Made by a program: the position numbers and the translations under genes. The notes below the pieces were generated by a model, which was not told where the DNA came from, ran no database searches, and saw only the letters and a program-made list of their open reading frames with translations. Shown here piece after piece: positions 3,969 to 18,378 of a stretch of DNA of 24,720 bases. How positions within the stretch are numbered: the stretch's first letter is position 1; each line of letters begins with the position of its first letter. The DNA is from Plicaturopsis crispa FD-325 SS-3 (taxonomy: Eukaryota > Basidiomycota > Agaricomycetes > Amylocorticiales > Amylocorticiaceae), in contig KN832555.1 of NCBI GenBank assembly GCA_000827205.1, positions 3,096,589-3,121,308 of the forward strand. Direction: 5' to 3'.

Positions 3969-4194
3969 GCGGGCGAGCTGGCAGCCTTGGTTTTGCGGCT
4001 TGTTCTCGTACCACCACCATCCCTAGAGCAATTGAGGTGTAGGAGGGCGTTGGGGACGAGACGATTCCATAGCCCAGCGCAGTAGGCGTACCGAACACCC
4101 GCGCCTTTGACTGCCGTTCATCCTCAGCAGTATTGTCCTGCTAGATACCGTTTCCGCATACCCATATACCCATATACCCATTAGCATCATTCTC

Positions 4195-5169
4195 ATGCAA
4201 CACAGCTCACATGAACGGGACAGTTCTGTCCGGACAGAACTTGCTGTCAAAGCCGTCACACCGCACCGCGAGCAGGACTCGCGCAGGACGTGCAGCGTAT
4301 GCCATTATGTACCCTACAGTGGACATTGCACTAATGAGCACACCCTTCGAATAAAGACCGCTCACCACCGGTGCACAACATGTAGCAAGACCTTTGGCAC
4401 AGAGCAGGACCTCCTCACGCACCTAGAAAGCGTTGGGGAGTCGCACAACACATGCGCCGCCTGCAACAGGCACTTCGTCTCCTGGCGTGCCCTCGAACAG
4501 CACTGGCTGCAGAGCCGCCGCCACAGTTACTGCCAGCGCTGCCGCGAGCATTTCGCCCACGCCCGTGCACTGGATGCGCACTACGACGCTGAGCACGTTA
4601 AGGTTATGTGCAAGCCCTGCGGGAGGTTCTTCACGACCGCGCACGGGCTCGCGCAGCACCTCCTCCAGGCGTCGAGGCACGTCGTCGTCTCGCCGCACCG
4701 TTGCCCGGAGTGCGATGGGCGCTTCGCGTCGAGGGCCAATCTCGAAGCTCACCTAGGATCGGGGGCGCATAACCTGAGGAGTACGCGATGCGTTTATGAG
4801 GATAGAGGATGTACGGCGAGGTTTGTATCGGAGCCTGATATGGTTGCGCACCTCGAGTCGGGGGTGTGTCCGTCGGGTGTGACGCAGATGCGCGTACGGC
4901 GGTTCGTTGTAAGGAAGGATAGGGGGTATCGGGTGACGGTGCGACCCGATGTGGACTACAGTGAGGAGGAGGAGGAGGAGGGAGGTAGGGATGGGGAGGG
5001 GGTGTACATCTGCCGAGACACCTGCAAGCGCCGTTTCACGACGCTCAGTGCGCTGTATCGACATGCACGCAGCCGGGAGTGCACGTCGCTGCGGCGCATC
5101 GAGCGGATGGTGAGGAAGCTGGGGGGCATGAAGGTCAAGGATCGGAGCGGAGGTCATGGTACGGAGTAG
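4195..5169 (+). CDS. C2H2 zinc-finger protein (five canonical plus degenerate fingers)
   Basis: The gene is modelled as a single exon of 324 aa. Five C2H2 fingers are visible with ligands C60/C63/H76/H84, C87/C90/H103/H110, C113/C116/H129/H134, C139/C142/H155/H162 and C170/C173/H186/H192. A partial finger starts at C33/C36, a C2HC-like unit lies around C200-C226, and a final C2HC-type unit (ICRDTCKRRF, ending SREC) lies near residues 270-295. The wide His-His spacing (H-x5-7-H) is of the type seen in fungal multi-finger proteins of unknown target. Residues about 245-260 contain a run of six Glu. The start is the first ATG after the TATA box at 3961. It could be a DNA- or RNA-binding protein. 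The target is unknown, and the family is certain only at zinc-finger level. Confidence 0.85.
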   Translation: MQHSSHERDSSVRTELAVKAVTPHREQDSRRTCSVCHYVPYSGHCTNEHTLRIKTAHHRCTTCSKTFGTEQDLLTHLESVGESHNTCAACNRHFVSWRALEQHWLQSRRHSYCQRCREHFAHARALDAHYDAEHVKVMCKPCGRFFTTAHGLAQHLLQASRHVVVSPHRCPECDGRFASRANLEAHLGSGAHNLRSTRCVYEDRGCTARFVSEPDMVAHLESGVCPSGVTQMRVRRFVVRKDRGYRVTVRPDVDYSEEEEEEGGRDGEGVYICRDTCKRRFTTLSALYRHARSRECTSLRRIERMVRKLGGMKVKDRSGGHGTE

Positions 5170-13556: not shown

Positions 13557-14559
13557 AATTTGTGAAACCCGGAAGAAGGGTGGCCGCAGCTCCAGCACAA
13601 ATCTTGCGAAAGATCCCTGGTCTTCACGTGGACCCAGTGTCGGTCGCCGACAAATTCTAACAAACCGTCGATCGTCCCGTATCACCGCAATGTTTTTTCG
13701 CCTGCAGGCAGACACGTTTCCCTTGCGAGAGACGGTGTTATCGTTCAACCGGGGCGCCATGCCTCGCCCGCCCTGTCTGTCGCTTTAGGTCGTCTTGGGA
13801 CGCGTAGGCGCGGTCAGGATTTCGGTCAGAGGTCGAGCGGTAAAGACTGTTAGAGTTGACCATATGACAGACGAAGATCTTGCCGAGCTTGCATCGCTAC
13901 TGATCGCAATGTCTCCGAGCTACTTCTGCTACATCTTTGGAGCTAGTACCTATTTCGCGACTGCTGACTTGTGTCTTCTGTCAAAGCGGGGCGCTGTGGG
14001 GAACACCGGGTGGCGAGCCATACAAAGGTCCTTGCGGTCGTCTGTCGCGCGTGCCCGACTGCCGTGAGCCTGCATGAGCTTTAAGGCAAAAAGGCTCGCA
14101 TCGTTACACGGCAAGACGACTTTCCTTTAATTGTACTCTGGCGTCTACTTATATCATAGCAACTGATGAGAGCCCTGTTTTTCTGCATGCCGGAGGACTT
14201 GATGTCATTTGCTGGTCATGTTTGGGAGCAAGAAGCAGACCTATTTTCGCAAAGCCAACGTTGCGCTACTCCGCTTGCACATATGTACGCGGAACTGGAC
14301 AGAGATATCCCCATGCTTGCCTGCTCGTGTACGCTGTGCTGCCAGTGCAAATGCTGTGTCTCAAACGTCTTGCTTGAGACCGTTTTCCTGCTTGGAGTTG
14401 TTCGCCCGTGGGTGGCGATGAAGGCGGCGACGGCGCGCGGGAGTTGCCGAGGACGTAGTTATACAACCGCCATGCTTGAAACGTCTGTCTCTTCATTTAC
14501 TACCACATACCGCCCAACTTTTCTCTCGATACCCGTTAAACCGTCTTATTCTATTCCCC
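13557..14559. other. divergent promoter region between glucanase and UDP-GlcNAc pyrophosphorylase
   Basis: About 1 kb separates the two start codons. The open frames in it (for example 13795-14067 and 14166-14573) show no family motif and no splice structure, so I treat them as chance. A pyrimidine-rich leader precedes the ATG at 14560. No clear shared operator was found. Confidence 0.55.
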
Positions 14560-16097
14560 ATGTCCTACGATAATCTCCGTCAACGTTACGAGGCCGCTGG
14601 CCAAGGTCATGTCTTCAATTTCTGGTCGCAACTGTCCGAAACCGAACAGCACTCGCTTGCCGCACAACTCGAGGCACTCGACATCGAACGCGTAAACCGC
14701 ATCTACCACACCGCCGTCAGCGCCGAGAAACAAGCCGCAGACCCTAATGCCCCGCAGGACGCGATTGAGCCGCTGCCCGAGGGCTCATTCGACTCGTACG
14801 TGACCCACCCGGAGAAGGCTGCCCAATGGCGCAGCGTCGGCTTAAAGGCCATTTCGCGCGGCGAGGTTGGCGTGCTGTTGATGGCGGGTGGTCAGGGAAC
14901 GCGACTGGGAAGCAGTGCGCCGAAGGGCTGTTATGACATTGGCTTGCCGTCGCACAAGTCGCTGTTCCAGTACCAGGCGGAGCGCATCGCGCGTCTGCAG
15001 GTCGTCGCGGAGAAGGAGTTTGGCAAGGCCGCGGGGTCTGTGATCATTCCGTGGTACGTTATGACCAGCGGGCCCACGCGCGCTGAGACGGAAGCGTACT
15101 TCACGAAGAACGCGTATTTCGGACTGGACAAGAACAACGTCATTTTCTTCGAACAAGGTGAGCCAACCTAGTGCACAAGTGCAGTAGTGTGTACTCATTT
15201 TTTTCCTCAGGTACTTTGCCGTGCATGACGATGGACGGGAAGGTCCTCCTCGAGACGAAGTCGCGCGTTGCGGTTGCACCGGATGGCAACGGCGGGTTGT
15301 ACGCTGCTACCCGCGCGCCCCTCTCCCCCTCTGACAAGTCTCGGACAGTCCTGTCGGATCTTAACGCCCGCAAGATCTTATACGTGCATGCATACTGCGT
15401 CGACAACTGCCTCGTGCGCGTCGCTGACCCAGTCTTCCTCGGCTACTCCATCGGCCAACAGGCCGCGTGCGCCGCGAAGGTCGTGCCCAAAGCCAGCCCG
15501 ACCGAATCCGTCGGCGTCATCGCGCGCCGCGGCGACAAATTCAGCGTCATCGAGTACTCCGAGATCTCCACCGCGCAGGCCGAGCGGCGCGACCCGAAGA
15601 CGGGCGAGCTCGCCTTCCGCGCGGGCAACATCGCGAACCACTTCTACACGACGCACTTCCTGGGCCAGATCGAGTCCTTCGAGAGCGAGCTGCCGCCGCA
15701 CATCGCGCGCAAGAAGATCGCGTACGTGGACCTCGCGAGCGGGGAGACCGTGAAGCCCGCGAAGCCGAACGGCATGAAGCTCGAGCACTTTGTGTTCGAC
15801 GTGTTCCCGCACACGCAGAGCTTCGCGGTGCTCGAGGTCGCGCGGGACGAGGAGTTCAGCCCGCTAAAGAACGCGCCGGGGACGGGGGCGGACGACCCAG
15901 ACACCAGCCGCCGGGATCTGCTCGCGCAGCAGCGGCGGTTCTTGGAGAGGGCGGGTGCGACCGTCAAGGAGGGCGTCGAAATCGAGGTCTCGCCGCGCGT
16001 CAGCTATGCCGGTGAGGGGCTCGAGAGCGTGAAGGGGAAGACTTTCTCGAAGTCGGGTTTGGTTGAGGAGGTTGAGGAACTGGACGCGCTAGTGTAA
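14560..16097 (+). CDS. UAP1: UDP-N-acetylglucosamine pyrophosphorylase
   Basis: Two exons, 14560-15157 and 15211-16097, give 494 aa, within the normal size range. The nucleotide-binding signature LLMAGGQGTRLGSSAPKG is at residues 106-123. Other conserved strings are GCYDIGLPSHKSLFQ, PWYVMTSGPT, FFEQGTLPC (spanning the intron), KSRVAVAPDGNGGLY, VDNCLVRVADP, GNIANHF and LEHFVFDVFP. The enzyme makes UDP-GlcNAc from UTP and GlcNAc-1-phosphate in the cytosol, the last step before chitin, N-glycan and GPI-anchor synthesis. The ATG at 14560 (CCCCATGTCC) starts right at the conserved N-terminal region (MSYDNLRQRYEAAGQ); an upstream in-frame extension from 14476 is not supported. The 3' end faces the taxilin gene with only about 170 nt between the stops. 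Confidence 0.96.
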
Positions 16098-16267: not shown

Positions 16268-18378
16268 TTAACCGCCCGCTGGATCGTCCTGTAGCTTGGC
16301 TAAACCCTTGTTCTCTAATTCTTCTCGCAAGGATGTAAACAGCCGTTGTGTCCGTTCCACGTTGGGCTGACCAGCCTATCTCGTCAATACGGTTCCGCAC
16401 ACGCAAGACGATGGGAAACTCACCTCTTTACAACAAGCAATGAGTTTGTCGATGAGCATCGTCTGCGAGCGCTGCGATTTCTCCAATTCGGTCTTCAGGA
16501 GCTGGACCTAAGAGCCAATATTGGATCGGCCGTCGCTGGAGCAGATATGAGACAGCTGCACACCTCATCCTCAGCCTTGTGCGACCGAGATTTCTCCCCG
16601 TCCGCGAGCTGCTTCTGCTCTGCAGCTCGTGCGCGGGACAGCAGGACTTCGAGCTCCTTCGACCGTATGACGCATTCGAAATGTCGTTCTCGCAGCTCGT
16701 ATTGTCGTAGCACCTCTTTCAAGCGTTCGCGGACACTGGATAACGAATTGAGTGAGATTGCGGTTATACGTGAGCAGTGCTTTCTGGACGTACACTCCGT
16801 CGAAGATCTCCTCCATTGAACGTCGTGCTCTGTGGAAAGGTGGGCAAGTCAATTTGGGGCGTTACAAATGGGTAGAAAAACAATCGCGTACTCTCGGGGG
16901 TCATCTGTCCAGTTTTTCTTCAGTTTTTGTCGACGGGGTTCGACTAGGTCTTCCCACTCCTCCCCTGCCGGGCCCTCGGTGAGGTCCATGAGCTCAACGG
17001 CCAATATCTCGTCACCGTCCTCCATCTCGGCCTCTTCAGGAGTCTGCTCGCTCTCCACAGTCCGTCCGTTATGCGTGAACACGAACTGCATGCTTGGCCC
17101 GGTGCCAGAGTTCGCGGTTGTGGAGGACGAGGACGTGCTCGCTGCATCCGTCTTCATCTGCCCCTGCCCCGACCCGCCTGTGCCCTTCTTCGCTGTCCCG
17201 GAGCCCACGCCCTCCATCCGGTCGGTCCACGCATTGAAAAGCCGCGCTAATTTCGTTTTACGCGAAATTTTGAAGAAGAGCTCCGCGCGGTAGCGGCAGA
17301 CGACCTTTACCACGATGTCAGGCATCTCACGGAATTTCACGTCCTGCAGCTTGGCGCGGTCGGCGCGTTTCGACATGTCGTTCTTCATTTGGAGTATCTT
17401 TCGAAGGGTAGCTGTCAGCAGTGACCCTGTGTCGTGAGGTGAGACTGACCTCGTCTTGCGCATCCTCCACGCATTGAGCCAGCCGCTTGCTGTCCTCCTA
17501 TATCCGTGGTTAGATGTACGTAGACCTGAAATATTGTGTGTGCTCACCCGTAACCTCTTATTGTCCTTCGTGCAATCTGTGAGTCAGTGCAGTTTGTCCG
17601 ACCATGGCATGGCGTACCTTTTGCAGCTCTCGTGCTAGATTTTCCATCTTTGTTTTGGTTTGATTCGCCTTCGTTAACTGGCCTTTTGCTATTATAGAAA
17701 GTGCGATTAGCTTCAATCAATGAAACTCACGGAGCAAGTGAACGAATTCACGGACCCGCATCTTTGTCCTTTGTCAATTTCTGCTTCTCCTTGGCGTGGT
17801 CGCGTTCCACTCTCTTCAATTCTGCGAACTGGGGGGCAGCGTTTAGCATAACGCCTACTCATTTACTAGCCACTCACTAATTCGATGTATTTGGAATGAA
17901 TGGTGTTCTCCTCCAGCCCCTTGACAGATTTCTGTGCCTCCTCAGCTGTCCAAATTTAAATTCAGTATAGCCCCTGCAGAGGTAAGTACAGACGGAGGTA
18001 AGAGGACCACGTACCGTACTGCCGTTCCTCCTCTTCCTCGAGCACTTCCTCCTCCTCCAGTGCAGCGATCCGGTTCTTGAGTGACTCGTACATCTGCGCG
18101 GGGTCGACAGGGGAAGGTTCAGACTTCTTCTTCCCCTTCGTTCCCGCACCCGATGGTGGGTGTGCATGGTGGTGGTGGGCGTGGTGGTGGTGCGCCCCGT
18201 TCGTGTGCGTGTGTGTATGCCCGGTCTGCGGCAGGTGCTTCGACGGCGCCATCTGCATCGTGGAGGAGGTGGGCGCAGATGCCGGAGGTGCAAGGGGCGC
18301 AGGGCCCGTCGGAGGTGGTTTTGCAAGCTTCGCGGACGCGTTTTGCGGCTGCGGGGGGTGGACACTTACACCGTTCAT
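16268..18378 (-). CDS. taxilin coiled-coil protein with embedded SUMO-like domain
   Basis: Eleven exons are 18378-18015, 17945-17878, 17828-17756, 17688-17618, 17565-17548, 17497-17450, 17397-16892, 16829-16794, 16735-16564, 16507-16424 and 16366-16268, joining in frame to 512 aa. The N-terminal about 100 residues are Pro/Ala-rich with a His tract (HHHHAHHHHAH). The coiled coil follows: FAELKRVERDHAKEKQKL, MENLARELQK/DNKRLR, and after exon 7 RRSMEEIFDG, LKEVLRQYELRERHFE and RSKELEVLLSRARAAEQK. LARELQ and QYELRE are taxilin hallmarks. Exon 7 (residues 215-382) inserts a beta-grasp domain resembling SUMO/Rad60-SLD: DIVVKVVC, ELFFKISRKTKLARLF, then a Gly/Ser/Lys-rich insert of about 40 residues (277-315), then QFVFTHNGRTVESEQTP and EEAEMEDGDEILAVELMD. 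There is no C-terminal Gly-Gly. Taxilins bind syntaxins or ribosome-associated NAC in animals; the role here is unknown. The C-terminus is shorter than in animal taxilins. Confidence 0.8.

Follow-up and report, generated by a model that had tools for sequence, protein, structure and literature searches.

Taxilins typically form one long uninterrupted coiled coil, and most descriptions of SUMO-like domains fixed within larger proteins concern factors of chromatin and genome maintenance (Rad60, Esc2 and NIP45). PMC549199 describes the Rad60-Esc2-NIP45 (RENi) type as a larger protein with linear, non-cleavable SUMO-like domains that lack Gly-Gly. SLD2 of Esc2 and Rad60 is described as non-conjugable and as binding the back of Ubc9 (PMC9243176, PMC7891725, PMC549199), and Esc2 SLD2 is reported to promote sumoylation (PMC9243176, PMC7891725). 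Neither ubiquitin nor SUMO can replace SLD1 or SLD2 of S. pombe Rad60 (PMC2946365), and SUMO-like is therefore not the same as SUMO-equivalent. Animal taxilins are described as binding syntaxins and as having a part in vesicle traffic, and a link between gamma-taxilin and alpha-NAC in ER stress has been reported (PMC4650556). Open-access literature searches returned no work on fungal taxilins.

The window analysed here, 24,720 nucleotides from the agaricomycete Plicaturopsis crispa FD-325 SS-3, encodes a predicted taxilin into which a SUMO-like domain is built. This pairing of domains is unusual and, judged from its sequence, could tie taxilin to the SUMO machinery. The gene is on contig C2 of a 33.2-Mb genome in 49 contigs. 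It runs on the minus strand, and an 11-exon model with GT-AG introns yields an open frame of 515 residues (Table 1). The ten introns measure, in order, 69, 49, 67, 52, 50, 52, 62, 58, 56 and 48 nt, so that exon 7 is flanked by introns of 52 and 62 nt and the other eight span 48-69 nt. Exon 7 starts in phase 0 and leaves two codon bases, which exon 8 completes. It was found exactly where the first-pass annotation of the window had placed it and contains the peptides named there. The acceptor of the micro-exon, exon 5, is the second AG past a branch-like CTGAC, the first AG lying just 7 nt beyond the branch A.

Table 1. Predicted taxilin/SUMO-like gene and its parts (positions in the window).
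Feature	Position	Strand	Basis
Whole taxilin/SUMO-like fusion gene, 11 predicted exons, 515 aa, TAA ends at 16268	16268..18378	-	Pfam Taxilin, E 2.3e-19
Exon 1, N-terminus of low complexity, rich in Pro and His, then beginning of the coiled coil	18015..18378	-	sequence and model
Exon 2, taxilin N-terminal coil	17878..17945	-	model; profile 4-104 over residues 123-215
Exon 3, taxilin N-terminal coil	17756..17828	-	model and Taxilin profile
Exon 4, taxilin N-terminal coil (LARELQK)	17618..17688	-	model and Taxilin profile
Exon 5, 18-nt micro-exon (DNKRLR)	17548..17565	-	model and acceptor context
Exon 6, end of taxilin N-terminal match	17450..17497	-	model and Taxilin profile
Exon 7, 506 nt: 26-residue lead, SUMO-like domain, charged linker	16892..17397	-	Rad60-SLD, PDB and splice-site scores
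SUMO-like domain proper, residues 241-353 (DIVVKVV ... AVELMDL)	16981..17319	-	profile, PDB and alignment
40-residue Gly/Ser/Thr-rich loop inside the SUMO-like domain, between expected helix 1 and strand 3	17092..17211	-	69% G+C
Exon 8, 36 nt, ARRSMEEIFDGV	16794..16829	-	model and splice-site scores
Exon 9, taxilin C-terminal half (QYELRERHFE...)	16564..16735	-	PF09728 profile 136-199, E 1.1e-7 (genome search)
Exon 10, taxilin C-terminal half	16424..16507	-	model and Taxilin profile
Exon 11, protein end (...QDDPAGG stop)	16268..16375	-	model

The whole protein matched the Pfam Taxilin profile (PF09728) in two stretches with 70.2 bits, against a cut-off of 30.3; the best stretch places residues 123-215 on profile positions 4-104. 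When the flanks were scanned alone, the part before exon 7 gave an E-value of 9.2e-12 and the part after it 4.7e-10 (profile 136-242), with the order of the profile kept. The proposal that taxilin sequence lies on both sides of exon 7 is thereby borne out by separate matches. Profile positions 105-135 were unrecognised in the protein and positions 243-302 found no match, the alignment stopping at 242 of 302. No second taxilin was found when the 33.2-Mb genome was searched with the Taxilin profile and three candidates were scored, and the C-terminal taxilin part, used as a query against the same genome, matched only itself. The N-terminal coil carries a heptad signal (48 of 2000 shuffles scored as high), and none was detected in exons 8-9 (1709 of 2000). 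When a 346-residue version of the protein lacking exon 7 was searched against the PDB, 57 sequences matched at E ≤ 10, the best at 0.034 and none of them named taxilin. The protein is like other members of the Taxilin family in the content and order of its flanks; unlike them, it has a SUMO-like domain between the two halves. The uninterrupted coil of a taxilin is absent, the two Taxilin stretches being split by the SUMO-like exon, and by profile the predicted protein is a taxilin with an insert rather than a typical taxilin.

Exon 7 alone matched the Pfam profile Rad60-SLD in two stretches (E 7.5e-8; 32.5 bits, cut-off 23.8). With 36 of the 40 loop residues omitted, a single continuous match was obtained that covers profile positions 1-68 of 72 (E 2.2e-10). 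The top match of exon 7 in a phmmer search of the PDB was chain 8oi3_C, named small ubiquitin-related modifier 2 (E 1.6e-9); 140 distinct sequences matched at E ≤ 1, and among the best 60 of these 140 are many SUMO-tagged constructs. These profile and PDB matches, together with the alignment to the genome's own SUMO described below, uphold the assignment of exon 7 to the SUMO-type beta-grasp sequences. A single-sequence AlphaFold model of exon 7 alone is too low in confidence to be used (mean pLDDT 39.6, pTM 0.27); its elements are H11-18, E28-34, E40-44, H50-62, E107-109, E112-114, E131-137 and H148-164. Past the first short helix this low-confidence model has the order E-E-H-E-E-E-H, the middle of which resembles the order in SUMO.

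The first Gly-Gly downstream of the SUMO-like domain is the very end of the protein, in agreement with the proposal of a non-cleavable module. The predicted protein ends in DDPAGG right at the stop codon (16268-16279), and ubiquitin-like modifiers do require a Gly-Gly at their terminus. Since it stands about 160 residues past the SUMO-like domain, this ending is probably due to chance. On sequence and predicted splicing, the domain is a linear ubiquitin-like domain without Gly-Gly that is built into a multi-domain protein, and its in-frame position within taxilin, as first proposed, is reproduced at this level by the open 515-residue frame.

Aligned with the genome's own SUMO, the exon 7 domain is identical at 29 of 67 positions, with a z-score of 13.5 against 300 shuffles at a lenient gap-extension cost. 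Two patterns are kept in the alignment: FFKI.R.TKL..L, at strand 2 and helix 1, and MED.D, an acidic patch. We take the FFKI strand and the helix leucine to form the SIM groove, and MED.D to be the patch of SUMO that faces Ubc9. Such a role of the acidic patch would be in line with PMC549199 and with what PMC7891725 says of E380/D430. The kept positions, which fall in both halves of the fold, argue against a functionless SUMO copy that merely lengthens the protein. A relic of this kind might be read from the low-complexity loop of 40 residues, from the missing Gly-Gly after the fold and from the 38 of 67 aligned positions that differ from the own SUMO. The frame is nevertheless open, and the GC3 of exon 7 (0.74) is that of a coding exon, the other exons lying at 0.48-0.75 and the G+C of the ten introns lower, at 0.40-0.56. 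We consider a relic very unlikely.

A SUMO gene separate from the fusion, which the first-pass annotation had named as a possible sign against it, does exist on contig C16. It has four introns (spliced by hand) and ends in EQVGG-ALSHASP, and it reads as the normal SUMO of this genome, with a Gly-Gly end, rather than as a displaced copy of the exon 7 domain; the idea that exon 7 is itself a displaced copy of SUMO or of Rad60 was rejected. The exon 7 domain and SUMO/SMT3 share a common Pfam family and the identity given above. Unlike SUMO, the fused domain is internal, has no Gly-Gly after its fold, contains the 40-residue loop and is free of predicted introns, of which the C16 gene has several.

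The search of the genome with Rad60-SLD gave 23 matches, several per locus and one of them in exon 7. Nine other places were examined. The own-genome searches led to the SUMO gene and to a Rad60/Esc2-type candidate (L021) on contig C5 at about 1126450-1127550. The C-terminal SUMO-like domain of this candidate was identified by Pfam (30 bits) and its first domain by eye. The exon 7 domain showed no significant similarity to that C-terminal domain (z 1.0). By eye, the C-terminal domain of the candidate has extra Lys/Pro/Gly-rich residues near the site that corresponds to the exon 7 loop, a likeness between the fusion and the local RENi-type candidate. Like RENi proteins the fusion holds its SUMO-like domain linearly and without Gly-Gly; unlike them it has one such domain, internal to a taxilin, where RENi proteins have two at the C-terminus. 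The spacing of the matches in two clusters, C3:133k and C2:1220k, was the ground for regarding these as polyubiquitin, and inspection of two of the nine places (L018 and L020) revealed nothing recognisable. In collections of viral and prokaryotic contigs, which are uninformative on fungi, 2 and 38 stretches respectively matched the pattern of exon 7, none of them related. Because no Gly-Gly follows it and because a normal SUMO gene and a Rad60/Esc2-type candidate lie elsewhere in the genome, the fused domain is, as judged from these comparisons, an extra, fixed SUMO-like domain.

The training set of the splice-site matrices consisted of the eight introns not adjacent to exon 7, and the acceptor matrix spanned 10 bases. 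The donor of exon 7, which was left out of the training, scored 7.3 and ranked sixth of the 66 GTs in 17700-16300, all five higher ones being training sites. The exon 6 donor scored 5.7 (eighth of 66) and the exon 8 donor at 16794 scored 8.0, but the latter is itself a training site. Donor 16794 and acceptor 16829 fix the frame of exon 8, and the phase of exon 7 feeds that frame. On this 10-base matrix, the exon 7 acceptor reached 1.6 and the exon 8 acceptor 2.0. The eight training acceptors scored higher (4.6-7.9), and so did acceptors that would skip exon 7 in frame, at 16779 (5.5), 16827 (4.4), 16656 (4.4) and 16713 (4.0). The wider surroundings of acceptor 16829 have a pyrimidine share of 0.76, the highest of the ten model acceptors (the mean of 109 AGs is 0.42), and a branch-like TTGAC lies 19 nt upstream of it, the preceding 45 nt being free of any other AG; the exon 7 acceptor at 17397 has CTGAC 17 nt upstream. 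The short acceptor matrix thus speaks against the model, and the longer acceptor context favours it.

The in-frame acceptors bear on an arrangement of two genes, in which an ordinary taxilin gene would harbour a small SUMO-like gene, on the same strand, in one of its introns and leave it out of its own mRNA. Exon 7 has ATGs of its own close to where it begins, and its open frame continues as far as a stop at 16849. Skipping it in frame is possible on paper through 15 combinations that use an exon between 16829 and 16737 and through 10 direct acceptors. In the combination that joins exon 6 via 16827-16796 to exon 9, the product scores 76.5 bits against the Taxilin profile, compared with 73.5 bits for a skip version that keeps the model frame of exon 8. 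Acceptor 16827, which is ahead of 16829 on the short matrix, shares the pyrimidine tract of the latter, but its partner donors are poor (-0.8 at 16796 and -3.6 at 16790, against the 8.0 of 16794); a third donor, 16745, lay outside the scored set. The frame-keeping acceptors 16779, 16656 and 16713, for all their higher scores, have pyrimidine shares of 0.41-0.47, earlier AGs and no branch-like motif in 45 nt, a loose test in which 4 of the 10 model acceptors also lack the motif. Across all skip acceptors other than 16827, which have pyrimidine shares of 0.24-0.53 and earlier AGs, a branch-like motif was seen only for 16810 and 16807, at distances of 38 and 41 nt. If exon 7 were unused, an intron of about 620 nt would be left in a gene whose other eight introns measure 48-69 nt. 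The exon is closed by a strong donor, followed by an ordinary intron of 62 nt, and the room for a promoter between exons 6 and 7 is only about 50 nt. We regard the existence of two genes as unlikely.

The same sites would serve a cassette exon 7, from which both a plain taxilin and the SUMO-like form would be made. The low short-matrix scores of the exon 7 and exon 8 acceptors are what such an exon might have, and the in-frame skip combinations would supply the second product. The first-pass annotation had held that skipping exon 7 breaks the frame. This is correct for the sites of the model, where the skip shifts the frame and the second half of taxilin is lost; it does not hold for every site, as the combinations above keep the frame on paper. 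Those combinations depend either on a donor that scores poorly or on acceptors whose upstream sequence lacks the usual features, and we judge alternative splicing of exon 7 to be improbable as well.

When the SUMO core was removed and the first 26 residues of exon 7 were kept, the Taxilin match became single and continuous, with 74.3 bits. Nine shuffles of these 26 residues gave the same continuous match at 75.2-85.8 bits, all nine above the native sequence, and the linker from downstream of the SUMO-like domain, put in place of the 26-residue lead, gave 82.3 bits. Since the shuffles and the linker score higher, the lead of exon 7 resembles taxilin in nothing but length; the continuous match reflects spacing only, and we rejected this segment as taxilin coil. 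Neither exon 7 nor exon 8 is supported as taxilin sequence by the Taxilin profile, because the shuffles and the skip version with the other exon 8 frame score higher.

We consider it likely that the locus is one gene, in which a complete SUMO-like beta-grasp domain splits a taxilin coil and would act as a fixed, non-conjugable docking module. The domain and its in-frame model are read from the sequence, and both the splicing and the age of the fusion are predictions. The taxilin coiled coil might dimerize or oligomerize and would then display several fixed SUMO-like heads. These heads could dock partners non-covalently, either SIM proteins through the conserved hydrophobic FFKI strand and helix leucine or, alternatively, the SUMO E2 Ubc9 by way of MED.D, the conserved acidic patch, as SLD2 of Rad60 and Esc2 does. 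SUMO-pathway factors would in this way be brought to the sites of taxilin, which in animals are syntaxin-bearing membranes or the nascent-chain machinery. We infer docking of SIM proteins or Ubc9 because known SUMO-like domains without Gly-Gly are linear docking modules and because taxilins have links to syntaxin and alpha-NAC. A SUMO-like domain in the only taxilin found in this genome would connect SUMO-type recognition with a trafficking protein family. It seems to us rather doubtful that, in this fungal lineage, the taxilin is a scaffold dedicated to the SUMO pathway, with a permanent array of SUMO mimics on its coiled coil that recruits Ubc9 or SIM proteins to sites of trafficking or of nascent chains; were it so, part of SUMO signalling would be hard-wired outside the nucleus.

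The first-pass annotation had not known such a fusion from the literature, and our searches of the open-access literature likewise found no paper on a taxilin-SUMO fusion among the titles listed. The domain combination may well be present, without comment, in the annotations of other fungi.

Tail to tail with the taxilin gene is a gene of the UDPGP family (UDP-sugar pyrophosphorylase type), with open frames at 14422-16097 on the plus strand and an E-value of 1.7e-11 for its first part; 170 bases separate the two stops. Elsewhere in the window, an open frame at 4111-5169 on the plus strand encodes several C2H2 zinc fingers.
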